Below, piece after piece: positions 9,557 through 15,944 of a DNA stretch of 64,000 nucleotides (its first letter is position 1; each line of letters begins with the position of its first letter). The DNA comes from Haliovirga abyssi. GTDB taxonomy: Bacteria; Fusobacteriota; Fusobacteriia; Fusobacteriales; Haliovirgaceae. The stretch lies in NCBI RefSeq assembly GCF_030295325.1, contig NZ_AP027059.1, forward strand, positions 496,001 through 560,000. Direction: 5' to 3'. The notes below the pieces were generated by a model. That model did not search any database and was not told the origin of the DNA. It was given only the letters and a program-made list of their open reading frames with translations. The position numbers and the translations under genes were made by a program.

Positions 9557-10282
9557 ATGTCAAATATCAACAGTCTTAATTCAACACAAATTGATACTTT
9601 GTTAAAATCAACAGAGTTAAAAGGAGGTGATAAGAGTAGTAATAATGAAAAAGAAGATATATCAAATTTTACAAAAAAAGATTTTTTAGATATTTCTAAT
9701 CAAATTGATATAATAAATCAGCAAAATAGTAAAGTGAATAAAAAATATAGTGATTTAGAGAAAAAATTAGGAATAGATTCAAATAAATGGGGAGTAGATG
9801 CAGTATCAGATGATATTTTTAATTTTGCAAAAATAGTATATGATAAATATAAAATAAACCACAGTGAAGAAGAAAGTCAAAAAGTTTTGGACGATTTTTA
9901 TAATTTAGCTAAAAAATCAATTACACAAGGGTATAATGAAGCAAAAGATTTTTTAGGTGCAGTATCAGAAGATGTAGCAGCATTAGGAAAAGCTACATAT
10001 GATAGAACAATAGAAAAACTTGACAATTGGTATAAAAATGGTGGAGTTGAAAGTACAGATAAAACAGAAGAAAACAAAACAGAAAATTCAGAAACTAATA
10101 AAATTAAAAATAAAAACACAGAAGAAACTAAAAAAACATATGAAGATTATGACAAGAAAACAAAACAAATGTTAAAGGAATCAGAAATAATAAAAAATCA
10201 AGTTGTAGAATTATTGAAACAGAGTGGATTATATGCAAAAGAGACAGAAACAAAAAAATCTACTATAGATTATGAAGGATAA
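9557..10282 (+). CDS. Soluble helical protein resembling DUF5610, unknown function
   Basis: A 241-residue protein with no signal peptide or membrane segment. Residues ~75-155 (NFAKIVYDKYKINHSEE through GYNEAKDFLG to YDRTIEKLDNW) have the look of DUF5610, a helical domain described mainly in Gram-negative bacteria; this is from memory and needs a profile search. The N-terminus is Ser/Asn/Lys-rich and residues ~160-205 are a charged, probably disordered linker before a last amphipathic helix. GGGGGAG precedes the ATG. The gene is monocistronic; 10283-10482 holds an R2 repeat fragment and the tRNA-Leu promoter. Confidence 0.75.
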   Translation: MSNINSLNSTQIDTLLKSTELKGGDKSSNNEKEDISNFTKKDFLDISNQIDIINQQNSKVNKKYSDLEKKLGIDSNKWGVDAVSDDIFNFAKIVYDKYKINHSEEESQKVLDDFYNLAKKSITQGYNEAKDFLGAVSEDVAALGKATYDRTIEKLDNWYKNGGVESTDKTEENKTENSETNKIKNKNTEETKKTYEDYDKKTKQMLKESEIIKNQVVELLKQSGLYAKETETKKSTIDYEG

Positions 10283-10367
10283 TATTAATAAAAAATAATA
10301 TTCCCATTTTCTTCTAAAAGGCTCAAGGTTCTTTTATGAAAATCATATAAAAAATTATGCCAAATGT

Positions 10368-10429
10368 ATGCAATGTTTTAAGCAGTTTTATAACAAAATA
10401 TGATAACATTATTTTTTAAACGTTCCTAA
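10368..10429 (+). repeat. R2 dispersed repeat, right half
   Basis: The 62 bp align without gaps to 48811-48872 with about ten mismatches (roughly 84 percent), ending in the shared TTTTTTAAACGTTCCTAA. The left half is missing or unrecognisable. Confidence 0.7.
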
Positions 10430-10443
10430 ATAAAAAAATTAGC

Positions 10444-10472
10444 TTGACACTTAAATAAAGTTGTGATAAAAT
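10444..10472 (+). promoter_or_regulatory. tRNA-Leu promoter
   Basis: TTGACA (10444-10449) and TAAAAT (10467-10472) with a 17-bp spacer end eleven bases before the mature tRNA. Confidence 0.8.
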
Positions 10473-10482
10473 ATTCTCCAAC

Positions 10483-10569
10483 GCCGAGGTGGTGAAATTG
10501 GTAGACGCACTGGACTCAAAATCCAGCGGGGGTGACCTCGTGCGGGTTCAAGTCCCGCTCTCGGCACCA
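10483..10569 (+). tRNA. tRNA-Leu (anticodon CAA)
   Basis: An 87-nt class II tRNA with encoded CCA. The acceptor GCCGAGG pairs with the 3' end. The anticodon arm CTGGA-CTCAAAA-TCCAG gives CAA, reading UUG. The long variable arm and the GGTTCAAGTCC T-arm are typical of Leu. Confidence 0.96.
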
Positions 10570-10596
10570 TAAAAGAGATTAAAAATTGTATAGTAT

Positions 10597-10626
10597 AAAA
10601 AGAGATACCTTAAGGTATCTCTTTTT
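10597..10626. terminator. tRNA-Leu terminator
   Basis: A 30-bp perfect palindrome (AAAAAGAGATACC, TTAA, and the complement) ends in five T, directly after the tRNA. Confidence 0.9.
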
Positions 10627-10634
10627 ATGTTAGA

Positions 10635-10822
10635 ATAGGAAAAGTATAAATTTATTATTGTGACTATATTTGAGTTATAATAGTTGAACACTATCTTTTT
10701 TTATAAATTTAATTGGAAGTTTTTTTTAGATGTGATATAATTGAGTAGTAAAGAAAAAATGATAATTGACACTAGGGAAAAAATATTTATGTTTCATAAG
10801 CTAAACCGTATCTTATTTTTTT
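10635..10822 (+). repeat. R1 dispersed repeat, degenerate copy
   Basis: The left end (10635-10656) matches the R1 start. The right end (about 10781-10822) matches ATTTATGTTT followed by an ATAAG/CTTAT hairpin and seven T. Segments A (10641-10651) and A' (10785-10794) still pair at ten positions, with the same two wobbles as the copy at 61074. The middle is diverged. No gene is visible in 10627-10884. Confidence 0.55.
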
Positions 10823-10884
10823 ATTATAAAAAAGATTAAAAAAATTTTAAAATGTAATTAATATTTTATGAAAAGGGGTTATAG

Positions 10885-11466
10885 ATGGCAGAGGGAAAAA
10901 GAGAATTAATAATGGATATAGCAGAAGAGATATTGATTAAAGCAAATTATAAAAGTATGACTACTTTACAAATAGCTAAAATTGGAAAGATTTCAGAAGC
11001 GACTTTATATAAATACTTTAAAGGGAAAAAATATATTTTTTTATCTGTATTAGAGAGATTTTATGATAATATATATAATAATTTTTTTGAAGGTGTAAAT
11101 AGTGGGAATACAATTTCTAAAAATTTTTATTTTATAGGAGAAAATTTATATAACATGTTGAAAAATGAGAATATGTCATATAAGATCGTATATAAAGCAT
11201 ACTCTGAAATAGATGATGAAAAAATAAAAGAAGTTTTGAAAAGAATATTCAATGAGATATTATCTGGTATAAGAGAAGTTATTAATTGGGGAATCGAAAA
11301 GCATGAGATAGACATTAAAGAGATTGATGCAGAAATATTAGCAATGTCAATGTGGGGAGTAATAGATAGTATATTAAGAAAGCATATAGTAGATGATGAA
11401 TGCGACATGGAAAGCGATTACTTTTTAAATTTAGGAGCTATCTTTTTTAATCTTTTGATAAAATAA
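10885..11466 (+). CDS. TetR-family transcriptional regulator
   Basis: A 193-residue repressor-type regulator. The N-terminal helix-turn-helix covers residues ~8-50, with the typical TTLQIAKIGKISEATLYKYFKGK. The C-terminal part is a helical ligand-binding and dimer domain without a recognisable subfamily. AAAAGGGG precedes the ATG. It lies upstream of the repeat lipoprotein and ankyrin genes in the same direction, with 121 bp between; whether it controls them is unknown. TetR proteins usually bind a palindrome near their own promoter, but none stands out here. Confidence 0.9.
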   Translation: MAEGKRELIMDIAEEILIKANYKSMTTLQIAKIGKISEATLYKYFKGKKYIFLSVLERFYDNIYNNFFEGVNSGNTISKNFYFIGENLYNMLKNENMSYKIVYKAYSEIDDEKIKEVLKRIFNEILSGIREVINWGIEKHEIDIKEIDAEILAMSMWGVIDSILRKHIVDDECDMESDYFLNLGAIFFNLLIK

Positions 11467-11587
11467 TTTTTTGGAAACGACTTAAAAATAATAAGAAATA
11501 ACAAAAGAACGTTTAAAAAATAATATTCTAAAATAGGCAAGGTGTTTTTTTTTAATTTTTTTAAATAAAATATGGAGGTTTTGTAAT

Positions 11588-12838
11588 ATGAAAAAAATTA
11601 ATTTATTAGTAATAGTAATTTTGTTGGTGATAGTTGGTGGATGTTTTAGTAGTGAAAATATTAATATTAATGATGGAACGATAACGTTAAATGAAAAAAT
11701 AGAAGTTGCAAAAGAAGAAGTAGAATTAAAGATAGAAGGAATAGTAGAAGGTAAATATTATATAGAAACAATAGGAGATGTGTACTGTAATATTTATAAT
11801 GAAACGGGGGAAGAAATTTCTGGTTTAAATTTAATGAATACATTAAAATCCGGATATTATATAAAAACTCATAATTCGGGAACAATAGAAATAAAATCAA
11901 AAGAGTATGTGCCATTAATAGAATTAAATGAAATAAAAACAGTATCAGGAAACAAATTATTTAAAATAAGAGAAGGCGTATCAGAAGACCAATATTATAT
12001 AGAAACGACGAAAGATGTATGTTATGGAATATATGATGAATCTGGGGATAGAGTTGATTTTAATTTAATGGATAAATTAAAACCTGGCTATTACATAAAA
12101 ACTTATAATTCAGGAACAATAGAAATAAAATCCAAAGATTATACACCATTAATAGGATTAAATGAAATAAAAACAGTATCAGGAGACAAATTATTTAAAA
12201 TAAGTGAAGGTATATCAGAGGGCCAATATTATATAGAAACGACGAAAGATGTGATTTATGGAATATATGATGAATCTGGAAATAGAGTTGATTCTAATTT
12301 AATGGATAAATTAAAATCTGGCTATTACATAAAAATTTATAATTCAGGAACAATAGAAATAAAATCCAAAGATTATACACCATTAATAGGATTAAATGAA
12401 ATAAAAACAGTATCAGGAAAAAAATCATTTAAAATAAGAGAAGGCGTATCAGAGGAGCAATATTATATAGAAACGACGAAAGATGTAGGTTATGAAATAT
12501 ATGATGAATCTGGGGATAGAGTTGATTCTAATTTAATGGATAAATTAAAATCTGGCTATTACATAAAAACTTATAATTCAGGAACAATAGAAATAAAATC
12601 CAAAGAGTATACACCATTAATAGGATTAAATGAAATAAAAACAGTATCAGGAAAAAAATCATTTAAAATAAGAGAAGGCGTATCAGAGGAGCAATATTAT
12701 ATAGAAACGACGAAAGATGTATTTTATGAAATATATGACGAATCTGGAAATAGAGTTGAGTCAGCAATGAATATATTAAAATCTGGCTATTACATAAAAA
12801 CTTATAATTCAGGAACAATAGAAATAAAAGAGAGATAA
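11588..12838 (+). CDS. Tandem-repeat lipoprotein, unknown function
   Basis: A 416-residue predicted lipoprotein. The signal peptide ends in the lipobox VGGC, with the lipidated cysteine at C19. The rest is five repeats of about 78 residues, each with the pattern KIREGVSE.QYYIETTKDV..IYDESG.RVDSNLMDKLKSGYYIK followed by YNSGTIEIKSK; the last repeat is cut short and the first is the most divergent. The spacing of short hydrophobic strands suggests a beta-rich fold. I do not recognise the family. It is probably exported and membrane-anchored, perhaps in surface binding. GGAGG precedes the ATG. Its promoter is not obvious; 11471-11520 carries short R2-like pieces. Confidence 0.8.
   Translation: MKKINLLVIVILLVIVGGCFSSENININDGTITLNEKIEVAKEEVELKIEGIVEGKYYIETIGDVYCNIYNETGEEISGLNLMNTLKSGYYIKTHNSGTIEIKSKEYVPLIELNEIKTVSGNKLFKIREGVSEDQYYIETTKDVCYGIYDESGDRVDFNLMDKLKPGYYIKTYNSGTIEIKSKDYTPLIGLNEIKTVSGDKLFKISEGISEGQYYIETTKDVIYGIYDESGNRVDSNLMDKLKSGYYIKIYNSGTIEIKSKDYTPLIGLNEIKTVSGKKSFKIREGVSEEQYYIETTKDVGYEIYDESGDRVDSNLMDKLKSGYYIKTYNSGTIEIKSKEYTPLIGLNEIKTVSGKKSFKIREGVSEEQYYIETTKDVFYEIYDESGNRVESAMNILKSGYYIKTYNSGTIEIKER
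11704..12838 (+). repeat. In-frame tandem repeats of 234 bp
   Basis: The marker AGTATCAGGA recurs at 11941, 12175, 12409 and 12643, exactly 234 bp (78 codons) apart. A more divergent first unit is 237 bp. Units 2-5 are nearly identical at the DNA level, differing mainly in the codons after AAAGATGTA. The copy number could therefore change by recombination. Confidence 0.95.
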
Positions 12839-12884
12839 AAATTTATTTTTCACCTCAATTTAAGCAAACCTATATTAAATCAAA

Positions 12885-12922
12885 ATTGAGTTATAAAAAG
12901 TTATGACTTTTTATAACTCAAT
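12885..12922. terminator. Perfect 16-bp hairpin after the lipoprotein gene
   Basis: Arms 12885-12900 and 12907-12922 are perfectly complementary with a 6-nt loop. There is no T-tract after it, so it may be a weak or factor-assisted terminator or an mRNA 3' stabiliser. Confidence 0.55.
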
Positions 12923-12966
12923 GGCTATTCTTTAAACTTAATTGTAAAATAATTTTATAAAAAGTA

Positions 12967-12995
12967 TTGACTTTTAATCAAAAATGTAGTAATAC
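12967..12995 (+). promoter_or_regulatory. Promoter of the ankyrin locus
   Basis: TTGACT (12967-12972) and TAATAC (12990-12995) with a 17-bp spacer. The predicted start near 13002 gives a leader of about 160 nt before the 27-codon ORF. Confidence 0.55.
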
Positions 12996-13005
12996 TTATA
13001 TTAGA

Positions 13006-13031
13006 AAAAGGGAATAAAAAAATTCCCTTTT
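13006..13031 (+). promoter_or_regulatory. Leader hairpin at the transcript 5' end
   Basis: AAAAGGGAAT (13006-13015) pairs perfectly with 13022-13031 across six A. It would form at the very 5' end of the predicted transcript. It could protect the mRNA or attenuate it; T follows on only one side. Confidence 0.45.
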
Positions 13032-13161
13032 AAATTTTAAAGATGTTGCCCCAAAATGGAAATCAAATTTAGTTTTGGAACAATATTTTTTTAAAGTTTT
13101 GTGTTCTGAAATTAAATTCAAATTCAAAAATGGAATAAAAAAGAAGCGGGGGGTGCTTAAA

Positions 13162-13245
13162 ATGAAAAATGAAGAGAAAGAAGTTACAAATGAGAATGAA
13201 GAGGATATTTTATATTTATTACAACTATTTGAAGCGTATTGCTAA
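13162..13245 (+). CDS. Possible 27-residue acidic peptide, upstream ORF
   Basis: ATG at 13162 is preceded by a GGGGGG ribosome-binding site. It reads 27 codons, an acidic stretch followed by a leucine-rich end (DILYLLQLFEAYC), to TAA at 13243-13245. That stop directly abuts the AAGGGGG site of the ankyrin gene, so translation of the two may be coupled. It may be a leader peptide or a real small protein. No homologue is known to me. Confidence 0.45.
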   Translation: MKNEEKEVTNENEEDILYLLQLFEAYC

Positions 13246-13258
13246 GGGGGAGAGAAAA

Positions 13259-13984
13259 ATGAAAAAAGTAATAATTGGATTGCTAATGGTATTTTTTCTA
13301 GTAGTGGAGACTTTTGCTGCAACTGGTGAATCTTACTTAAATAAATATATGATGATGGCTGTAAAAAAAGGAGATATTGCAACAATTAGATTATTGAAAG
13401 AAAAAGGCGCTAATCTGAATATAAAAGATAGAAAAGGGAATTCTTTGCTAATGCTTTCTATATATTTAGGGTATGATGATATTTTTGAATATTTAGTAAA
13501 AAACGGAGCAAATTATTTATTAACAGATAATAGTGGAAGAAGTCCATTAATACTTTCTATATATTTAGACAGAGGAAACATGATTAATTATATGCTTGAT
13601 AGTGGACTATTAGAAGGATTAAATATAAAAGATATAAGTGGAAAAACAGCATTAATGATTGCAGTTGCAAAAGGAGATAAAAAATTAGTAACTAAACTAT
13701 TGAAACTTGGAGCAAATCCTAATGAAAAAGATAAATTAGGGAGAACGCCTCTTGCAGAAGCAATGGATTTAAATCTTCCAGAAATAACTAAAATTTTATT
13801 AGAAAATCAAGGAAAAGCAAATCATTCTATAGACAAAGAGAGAGACTTGCTTAGATATGCAACTTTTTCTGGAGATGCTGGTATAATAAGAAATATGCTT
13901 GCGGAAAAAAGAGAAACTACAGAGTCAGATAGTAAATATGCAATAGTAATAATAGAAAGAAATATATTTTTGAAAAAATATTAA
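13259..13984 (+). CDS. Exported ankyrin-repeat protein
   Basis: A 241-residue protein with a signal peptide (MKKVIIGLLMVFFLVVETFA, predicted cleavage after the alanine near residue 20). Five to six ankyrin repeats span residues ~28-215, for example SGKTALMIAVAKGDKKLVTK and KLGRTPLAEAMDLNLPEIT. Ankyrin stacks bind other proteins; export points to the periplasm or outer face. The frame is open to 13169, but the start at 13259 has AAGGGGG at the right distance and begins the signal peptide. The coiled-coil gene follows 39 bp downstream, so the two are probably co-transcribed. Confidence 0.85.
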   Translation: MKKVIIGLLMVFFLVVETFAATGESYLNKYMMMAVKKGDIATIRLLKEKGANLNIKDRKGNSLLMLSIYLGYDDIFEYLVKNGANYLLTDNSGRSPLILSIYLDRGNMINYMLDSGLLEGLNIKDISGKTALMIAVAKGDKKLVTKLLKLGANPNEKDKLGRTPLAEAMDLNLPEITKILLENQGKANHSIDKERDLLRYATFSGDAGIIRNMLAEKRETTESDSKYAIVIIERNIFLKKY

Positions 13985-14023
13985 GGAGTGTCTTAAAAAA
14001 ATTATAAGTGGGGGTGTAATATA

Positions 14024-14878
14024 ATGAAGAAAAATTCGATTAATTTAATCGTGATAATATGTATATTTGTAATTATTAACTTAGTGATTTATCCTGTGGA
14101 TACCCCTAAAAAAATTAAATCGATAGAAAAATATAAAGTTATAAATGGAGAAAATATTCGAAAAGAGATAGATGACTATTTAGAAAAAGCATTTAAAGAT
14201 ATAGAAGGAGAATATAAAAAAATAGATGAATTAAAATTAGAAACTGAAAATTATTTAGAAAAAGCTAAACAGGATGCCCAAAATGCTAGAAGAGAAAGGC
14301 AATTAGCTGAAAAAGAGAGAATAAGTTTACAGGAAGAGAGAAAAAAAGCTGAAGAAGAGAGAATTAAAGCTGAAGAAGAGAGGCTCAAAGCAGAAAGAGA
14401 AAGAATAAAAATTGAAGAAGAAAAAAGAATGTTTGATGTGCGAAAGAAAGAAAATATTATCTATGAATATAATGATTATAAAATGCAAAAATATATTAAT
14501 AAAATAATATCAAGAATGGTTACAAATCCTAACATTATAAAAGATGTTATAAAATATTTTGAAGAAGGAAAAATTGTTGAAAGTGAAGCAAAAGTAATAG
14601 TTTTAAATAAATTAAAAGAAATTTTAAAAGAGAATAGGGGAAAAGAAATTAATCCAAAAGCTGAAAGAGAATATCAAAGTTATTTGCAATGGAAAACAGT
14701 TAAAAATAATTTGATAAATATAATTGAAAGAAAAGATTTTGATATTAAAAAATTAAAAGATGCTATAAATTATATAAAAAATGATGTAGATGTTGAATAT
14801 AAAAAAAATATAGAAAATATAATGGAAGAAGAGCTAAAACAGTTAAAAATTGAAAAAAATATTGGAGAGAAAAAATAA
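14024..14878 (+). CDS. Membrane-anchored coiled-coil protein, unknown function
   Basis: A 284-residue protein. A hydrophobic segment at residues 7-24 is either an uncleaved anchor or a signal. A long charged coiled coil follows (about 60-140), with an EERKKAEEERIKAEEERLK heptad-like run. The second half is a helical domain (about 150-280) with no recognised family. GGGGGTG precedes the ATG. It sits in the same transcription unit as the exported ankyrin protein, so a shared envelope role is possible. A perfect-palindrome terminator follows. Confidence 0.75.
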   Translation: MKKNSINLIVIICIFVIINLVIYPVDTPKKIKSIEKYKVINGENIRKEIDDYLEKAFKDIEGEYKKIDELKLETENYLEKAKQDAQNARRERQLAEKERISLQEERKKAEEERIKAEEERLKAERERIKIEEEKRMFDVRKKENIIYEYNDYKMQKYINKIISRMVTNPNIIKDVIKYFEEGKIVESEAKVIVLNKLKEILKENRGKEINPKAEREYQSYLQWKTVKNNLINIIERKDFDIKKLKDAINYIKNDVDVEYKKNIENIMEEELKQLKIEKNIGEKK

Positions 14879-14901
14879 TAAATTTAGTGTGGGAATTAAT
14901 A

Positions 14902-14941
14902 AAAAAAGAAAGGTGCTTAAATTTAAGCACCTTTCTTTTTT
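14902..14941. terminator. Bidirectional terminator
   Basis: A 40-bp perfect palindrome (arms 14902-14921 and 14922-14941), with A6 at the left end and T6 at the right, sits between converging genes. Confidence 0.93.
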
Positions 14942-14945
14942 AACT

Positions 14946-15944
14946 TTATATTGTCCTATTTAATTTTTCTAAACTAATTTTAGCATATTTTAAAAGTATC
15001 TCATTATTATTAGATTTAATAAATTTTTCTAATAAATCTATATATTTTTTATTATTAGAGTTTCCAATTATAATAAGTGCATTTCTTTTTAAAGTATTAG
15101 CTCCAGTCCAACCAATTGGAGTGTTAGAATAAAATTTTTTCAATTTTTTATTGGACATGAATAAAATTTTCTCAATAGAAATATATAAATTATTTAAAAT
15201 TTTAAACTCTTTTATTGGAGAAGAAGATATATTTTTATTCATAGGACATACATCTTGGCAGATATCGCATCCCCAATAATTATTATAAATCAATTCAGGC
15301 GAAATATTATTTTTAGTAGTTGTTAGATATGCAATACATTTTGTAGCCTCAAGTTTAAAATCGCCTAAAATAGCAGAATTAGGACAACTAGTTTTGCATA
15401 AATTACATTTATTACAGAGTAAATTAAATTCTTCAGATAATTCAGTAGGCGCTAATTCTAAATCAGTTAAAATTTCTCCTAAAAAGATAAAAGAACCATA
15501 TTTTTTTGTATATATTAAAGAATTTTTTCCATAAAGTCCAATTCCGCTATTTTTCGCTATCTCTTTTTCAAAAAGTGGATTTGAGTCTACATATATTTCA
15601 AATTTATTATTAGGATATATATTTTTTAATTCAATTATTATTTTTTCTAAAATATTATTTGCAACATGATGATAGTCTAATCTTAAAGCATATTTTGATA
15701 TTTTATATTCTTTGTATTCTGGAATATTTCCATTGTTATATGGAAATGCAATTGAAATAATAGATTTGATATTTGGAAAAATATTATTTAAATTAGATCT
15801 TTTGTTAAAATCTTTTTCATCAAATTCAACAATATGATTATCAGCTAATTTTGAATTAAAAATATTTTTTAAATATGAAAAGTCAGTTATATTTGTTATT
15901 CCATATACGTCTATATTATAATTTGATAAAATTTTATTTAACAT
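14946..15944 (-). CDS. queG: Epoxyqueuosine reductase
   Basis: Catalyses the last step of queuosine tRNA modification, reducing epoxyqueuosine with cobalamin and two 4Fe-4S clusters. Cluster ligands are visible as C177-X2-C180-X2-C183-X3-C187 (CNKCNLCKTSCP) and C226-X2-C229-X3-C233 (CDICQDVCP). The VDSNPLFEKEIA segment matches the region holding the catalytic aspartate. The C-terminus (about 280-332) looks like the short HEAT-type repeat found in the family. At 332 aa the length is typical. It is the distal gene of a pair with trpS on the minus strand; no other que gene is near. Confidence 0.93.
   Translation of the reverse strand: MLNKILSNYNIDVYGITNITDFSYLKNIFNSKLADNHIVEFDEKDFNKRSNLNNIFPNIKSIISIAFPYNNGNIPEYKEYKISKYALRLDYHHVANNILEKIIIELKNIYPNNKFEIYVDSNPLFEKEIAKNSGIGLYGKNSLIYTKKYGSFIFLGEILTDLELAPTELSEEFNLLCNKCNLCKTSCPNSAILGDFKLEATKCIAYLTTTKNNISPELIYNNYWGCDICQDVCPMNKNISSSPIKEFKILNNLYISIEKILFMSNKKLKKFYSNTPIGWTGANTLKRNALIIIGNSNNKKYIDLLEKFIKSNNNEILLKYAKISLEKLNRTI

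Follow-up and report, generated by a model that had tools for sequence, protein, structure and literature searches.

Stabilising hairpins at the 5' end of an mRNA, of the ompA type, are a known class of leader structure. TolA-like tethered helices are a known comparison class among membrane-anchored proteins, and in the KatA/AnkB type a catalase gene lies beside an ankyrin gene.

Short upstream ORFs are the nearest described systems at the level of translation. A 2025 review states that such ORFs may serve just to bring the ribosome to the next gene, and that in some of the cases cited a distance of +12 or +13 nt causes a ten-fold or total loss (PMC12548453). In a second paper a distance of about 20 nt nearly abolishes coupling by termination-reinitiation in six gene pairs (PMC10666635). 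Both sources indicate that coupling usually weakens sharply past a few nucleotides. The locus described here resembles short coupling ORFs and bicistronic designs in that an ORF of few codons with a strong ribosome-binding site of its own is followed, after a short gap, by a gene whose ribosome-binding site lies at the stop of the first. It differs from coupling ORFs in its spacing, +13 nt where an overlap of -4 or -1 nt is usual, and in being described from sequence alone.

The locus lies in a stretch of 64,000 nucleotides of the Haliovirga abyssi genome (NZ_AP027059.1, positions 496,001 to 560,000), referred to here as the window. The G+C content of the window is 0.279 and the host genome comprises 2.73 Mb in two contigs. 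This host is the sole member of its family among the 98 genomes of the phylum that were compared; the comparisons are at the level of the order and phylum. When the DNA was re-read, the leader hairpin, the micro-ORF, the ankyrin gene and the gene for a helical protein were found in that order and at the coordinates given in an earlier account made from the letters of the DNA, called the sequence-only reading below (Table 1).

Table 1. Features of the locus and of the related ORF in genome G001 (window positions unless a contig is given).
Feature	Position	Strand	Sequence or remark
Repeat lipoprotein gene, upstream of the unit	11588-12838		lipobox-like VGGC, read by eye
17-bp inverted repeat, perfect stem, boundary between lipoprotein gene and unit	12885-12922		likely two-way terminator; terminator-like on both strands
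Promoter-like site	12967-12996	+	TTGACT 12967-12972, then TAATAC 12990-12995 (17-nt spacer) or AATACT 12991-12996 (18 nt)
Perfect 10-bp hairpin at the expected mRNA 5' end	13006-13031	+	AAAAGGGAAT/ATTCCCTTTT; above chance
CCCC, rare run in the leader	13049-13052	+	predicted pairing with the ankyrin ribosome-binding site
17-bp leader hairpin with G-U pairs	13066-13116	+	predicted fold
Micro-ORF ribosome-binding site	13148-13156	+	GGGGGGTG; duplex energy -13.0 kcal/mol
Micro-ORF, 27 aa	13162-13245 (ATG 13162, TAA 13243-13245)	+	MKNEEKEVTNENEEDILYLLQLFEAYC; binding site, codon use
Ankyrin ribosome-binding site, directly after the micro-ORF TAA	13246-13254	+	GGGGGAGAG; energy -9.9
Ankyrin-repeat protein, 241 aa	13259-13984 (stop 13982-13984)	+	signal-peptide-like N-terminus; Ank_2
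Helical protein, 284 aa	14024-14878	+	N-terminal hydrophobic helix, long charged helix (about residues 42-165), helical C-terminus
18-bp inverted repeat ending the unit	14902-14941		likely two-way terminator; terminator-like
G001 94-aa ORF, C-terminal tail like the micro-ORF peptide	L071:1492-1776	-	sequence search

The order and spacing of the genes, the ribosome-binding sites, the gene-like codons of the micro-ORF, the hairpins and the ankyrin repeats are present in the DNA. The best reading of them, to which we give a probability of about 0.42, is a lineage-specific three-cistron envelope operon in which the micro-ORF is a leader cistron that feeds ribosomes to the ankyrin gene. The transcript would begin near 13003 and its 5' hairpin would shield the end of the mRNA. 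The very strong micro-ORF site would load ribosomes, which would terminate at the TAA; some might reinitiate 13 nt further on, or run through the ribosome-binding site of the ankyrin gene and so keep this site open. The ankyrin protein would be exported by Sec and serve as a protein-binding adaptor in the periplasm, and the third gene would supply a membrane-tethered long helix, a possible partner of the ankyrin protein if it faces the same side. If the micro-ORF does drive the ankyrin gene, the locus would offer a clean case from nature, beyond the model bacteria, of a short ORF with an unusually strong site that feeds an envelope gene across 13 nt, a disputed distance for coupling.

The three cistrons, from about 13003 to the hairpin at 14902-14941, are likely to form a single transcription unit apart from the lipoprotein gene, because inverted repeats flank them and the two genes that follow lie on the opposite strand (the nearest at 14946-15944). 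No such repeat is found between the cistrons. The letters of the promoter named in the sequence-only reading are present and suggest a transcription start near 13003, but promoter-like sites are no more frequent than chance in the region 11400-15000, where 23 were found against 26.5 +/- 4.3 in shuffles.

The micro-ORF is probably translated, as judged from its binding site and codons. Binding-site energies were calculated against the anti-ribosome-binding-site sequence of the host's own 16S RNA, the 3' end of which was taken from the window. The micro-ORF site is the best of the 166 non-genic ATGs in the window and is stronger than the sites of all 45 predicted window genes (range -12.7 to -3.8). 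A sample of 464 kb was also scored, made up of the window and 400 kb sampled from the genome. Of 1748 non-genic ATGs, seven open an ORF of 10-79 codons with an energy of -9 or lower, and the micro-ORF is the strongest of the seven. Among the 372 predicted genes of the same sample ten reach -13.0, a count in which the ankyrin start was placed at or near 13169 and the ankyrin gene hence carries the binding site of the micro-ORF.

The codon score of the micro-ORF is 0.243 per codon, above that of 30% of 4299 gene segments; of 824 stop-free shifted-frame segments, 0.36% score as high. An earlier and smaller codon test found it reached by none of 32 shifted-frame segments and by 11% of 1210 overlapping stop-free intergenic segments, a set that includes the micro-ORF itself and any missed genes. 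The description of a well-initiated micro-ORF with a stop that abuts the next ribosome-binding site therefore holds, given the top binding energy, the gene-like codons and a TAA that runs straight into GGGGGAGAG. Another of the seven strong sites (L102, start 4650, minus strand; -9.3) opens a 37-aa candidate micro-ORF with a gap of 8 nt to the start of the next gene; by its letters it resembles a repeat element and not a gene.

The gap of 13 nt between the micro-ORF stop and the ankyrin ATG is marginal for coupling, in view of the steep fall-off with distance described in both sources (PMC10666635, PMC12548453). The handover of ribosomes stays a tentative bet because coupling weakens so sharply past a few nucleotides. 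With a good ribosome-binding site in front of it, the ankyrin gene may need no coupling.

Alternatively, the 27-aa product of the micro-ORF could be a working peptide that merely shares the operon; its head is acidic, and its C-terminal tail, amphipathic and hydrophobic, would dock on a partner. Residues 2-26 match the C-terminal end of the 94-aa ORF in G001 with 52% identity over 25 residues (E 8.4e-4, the value for that one genome). Both chains end one or two residues past a shared tyrosine, the reversed peptide has a best E of 0.17 in the same 98 genomes, and the codons, as above, are gene-like. Against this, there is one such match in 97 other genomes with about 0.08 expected by chance over the whole search, and in the reverse search with the G001 ORF the micro-ORF has an E of 0.011 and ranks after four genomes that look unrelated. 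The G001 gene also lies in another context, with no ankyrin gene within the 3075 bases seen; its neighbours on the two sides are a 390-aa InlB-repeat protein and a 155-aa ORF. It is suggestive that the similarity falls at the end of both chains; the match statistics are not decisive, and we regard a working peptide of this kind as unlikely.

At E<=1 the micro-ORF peptide has matches in 6 of the 98 genomes, its own included. Conservation of the micro-ORF, named as a check in the sequence-only reading, comes down to the one borderline match in a different context; at order level this is a negative result, but one of little weight in a comparison with no other genome of the same family. No Pfam family was found for the G001 94-aa ORF, and a reading of it as a Nif11-like leader was dropped without Pfam support. 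It is quite improbable that the peptide is a free-standing C-terminal docking tail (xNExDILxLxxLFExY), fused to the 94-aa protein in G001 and translated here as a cofactor that docks on a membrane or a protein and serves the ankyrin/helical pair, with its leader also setting their expression.

The leader hairpin at 13006-13031 is real, as the sequence-only reading had it, in the sense that its class of stem is beyond chance. The 6373 non-coding bases contain six perfect hairpins of at least 9 bp with at least 3 G/C in one arm, where a shuffle yields 0.02 on average; the other five appear to be terminators by their position. Lying three bases past the predicted start, the hairpin fits a role in stabilising the 5' end. 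It is like the ompA-type hairpins in being a few bases from the predicted mRNA start and differs in that the start here is a prediction from the letters. A literature search for support of this role found none. The hairpin could alternatively be a weak terminator, since T-rich sequence lies downstream of it. The genome has a single copy of its inverted repeat (9-bp core), and a reading of it as an operator was rejected for want of a second genomic copy in a search with the exact arms; a TetR-type regulator is encoded two genes upstream (window 10885-11466, E 1.2e-6).

About 130 bases of leader separate the hairpin from the micro-ORF. We considered whether this leader acts as an RNA switch (riboswitch, attenuator or thermometer) and conceals one of the two ribosome-binding sites, that of the micro-ORF or that of the ankyrin gene. 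The leader has two stable hairpins, the second within a region (13060-13120) that was picked after its fold was seen and gives a z of -3.9, matched in at most 1 of 300 shuffles. The rare CCCC run is able to pair with either G-rich site. It is predicted to pair with the ankyrin site with a value of 0.78 in the fold of 13000-13300, more weakly in longer transcripts, and with the micro-ORF site instead when the leader is folded alone. A switch looked likely at first from these folds and then failed the shuffle control. Of 150 dinucleotide-shuffled leaders, 35-64% hide the ankyrin site as much or more, the share varying with the length of the transcript, and 59-75% do so for the micro-ORF site. 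The site is less open than that of the micro-ORF in 18 of 45 genes, and nothing in the leader reaches the Rfam gathering score, the chance matches being far below it. Shuffled leaders mask both sites equally well and we therefore claim no switch, which we consider very unlikely. The masking of the ankyrin site by CCCC, being no stronger than with shuffled leaders, also counts against the best reading.

The ankyrin protein matches Pfam Ank_2 (E 3.9e-25, 88.7 bits against a cut-off of 27.3) with four Ank stretches, which places it among the ankyrin-repeat proteins. Its N-terminus, MKKVIIGLLMVFFLVVETFA|A, by eye fits a Sec signal peptide; the protein is exported-looking. Ankyrin matches at E<=0.001 occur in 47 of 60 genomes, its own counted, and the best of them have 25-40% identity; such matches seem to reflect the repeat as much as descent. 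No relatives were confirmed in collections of genome contigs and viral contigs.

The N-terminus is hydrophobic (>=1.4 on an ad hoc scale) in 16 of the 19 ankyrin loci of relatives that were examined. Single-unit exported ankyrin proteins found elsewhere in the order (L052-L064, for example) are similar in length, about 250 aa, in their hydrophobic N-terminus and in sequence, with about 30% identity over the repeats. They differ in lying mostly beside a gene that we take to be PTS enzyme I-like, and in having no micro-ORF or helical protein. No gene like that of the helical protein lies beside the ankyrin gene at the 19 loci of the 19 relatives, at one paralogue in the host genome or at two further ankyrin loci in G001. 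As we read them, the ankyrin paralogues of the host (L011, L012) have neither a helical partner nor a micro-ORF.

The exported ankyrin proteins of the order appear to have varied envelope-type neighbours. In G001 (L048:2361-5372) the exported ankyrin gene is last in a row of three, after those for a secreted 349-aa protein and an anchored leucine-rich-repeat protein. At L060:4986-6805, and also at L056 and L061, an exported ankyrin gene adjoins genes for small exported proteins with an LprI domain (lysozyme inhibitor); at L060 the LprI-domain protein (E 2.8e-12) is encoded upstream, and the proteins at L056 and L061 are near-identical by eye. We presume that these three genomes are Leptotrichia-like. 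The locus differs from the KatA/AnkB type in that no catalase was found in a domain scan of the six proteins of 9557-14875, nor in 14946-15944, which was read by eye.

It has also been reported that exported ankyrin proteins occur among periplasmic immunity proteins. One reading is that the ankyrin protein might confer immunity or protection, with the helical protein as the corresponding toxin or as a partner; the LprI-domain neighbour in some relatives lends something to it. No toxin domain was found in the scanned neighbours, however, PADLOC matches the ankyrin protein only with models that carry repeats and the helical protein has no known domain, and we hold this to be highly improbable. 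A start of the ankyrin protein at ATG 13169 on the strong upstream site, which would make the micro-ORF an out-of-frame artefact, is almost certainly wrong: the ankyrin frame has no stop as far back as 13169, which would give 271 aa, but the codon scores speak against the extension MKRKKLQMRMKRIFYIYYNYLKRIAKGERK (-0.138 per codon, below 99.5% of gene segments, against 0.243 in the micro-ORF frame), it would place 30 residues ahead of a normal signal peptide, and a separate binding site precedes the start at 13259.

The helical protein was described in the sequence-only reading as an anchored coiled coil. Its N-terminal hydrophobic segment can be read as a membrane anchor, but the coiled-coil label is loose, as the one hydrophobic heptad position is mostly alanine in the middle stretch and the rest are charged; a single long alpha-helix would fit as well. 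The protein is similar to TolA-like tethered helices in that a membrane helix at its N-terminus leads into a long charged helix striped with alanine. It differs from them in having no TolA family match and a C-terminal part predicted to be all-helical. Models made without an alignment have a mean pLDDT of 65.4 for the whole protein and 66.2 for the last 135 residues, where the all-helical prediction is of low confidence. Fold comparisons gave generic helical look-alikes only (Z up to 6.3 and 6.1, below the meaningful level), and a sequence search of solved structures gave five weak coil matches.

No whole-length relative of the helical protein was found in the 97 other genomes of the phylum among the candidates scored, at most 25 first-look candidates per genome, where charged-helix noise may crowd out a weak relative. 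The C-terminal part was searched separately because of this possible crowding. It matches in 31 of 98 genomes at E<=0.05, its own counted, and in one other at E<=0.001; this best match (G002, E 5.9e-4 over 37 residues) lies 68 kb from the ankyrin gene of that genome. Searches of the 60 relatives, genome contigs, viral contigs and plasmids found only short, low-scoring stretches. The protein would be one more lineage-specific tethered helix.

It had been proposed that the ankyrin stack and the coiled coil form an envelope complex, with conserved co-occurrence of the genes as the check. The check was run and lends the proposal no support: in the 98 phylum genomes, which include none of the same family besides the host, the helical protein occurs in the host alone (1/98), exported ankyrin genes elsewhere are in other contexts, and the micro-ORF, ankyrin and helical genes were found together in no other genome. 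At this range the outcome is weak evidence. Operon logic alone makes a complex of the two proteins plausible. An envelope complex with the ankyrin protein in the periplasm is unproven, since the orientation of the helical protein is not readable from its charges (2 lysines before the hydrophobic stretch and 5 in the 16 residues after it). The claim that no known system matches this combination stands for the exact set of genes and does not extend to exported ankyrin proteins, which are common in the order (the 47 genomes above). Apart from the possible micro-ORF coupling and the helical protein the locus is ordinary, and it looks like a lineage-specific operon with no sign of a new system.

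The lipoprotein upstream, suggested as a possible further member of the complex, is set apart by the 17-bp hairpin and is missing from most relatives; at E<=0.001 it is found in 2 of 60 genomes, its own counted. No Pfam family scores above the cut-off for it. Its repeats, read by eye, are near-identical and of 234 nt (78 aa) each. The N-terminal part is weakly like two 574-aa open frames in the host genome, one of which encodes a leucine-rich-repeat-like lipoprotein. Further upstream in the window, a DUF5610 protein (9557-10282, E 3.1e-11) is encoded just before a tRNA-Leu gene (10483-10569).
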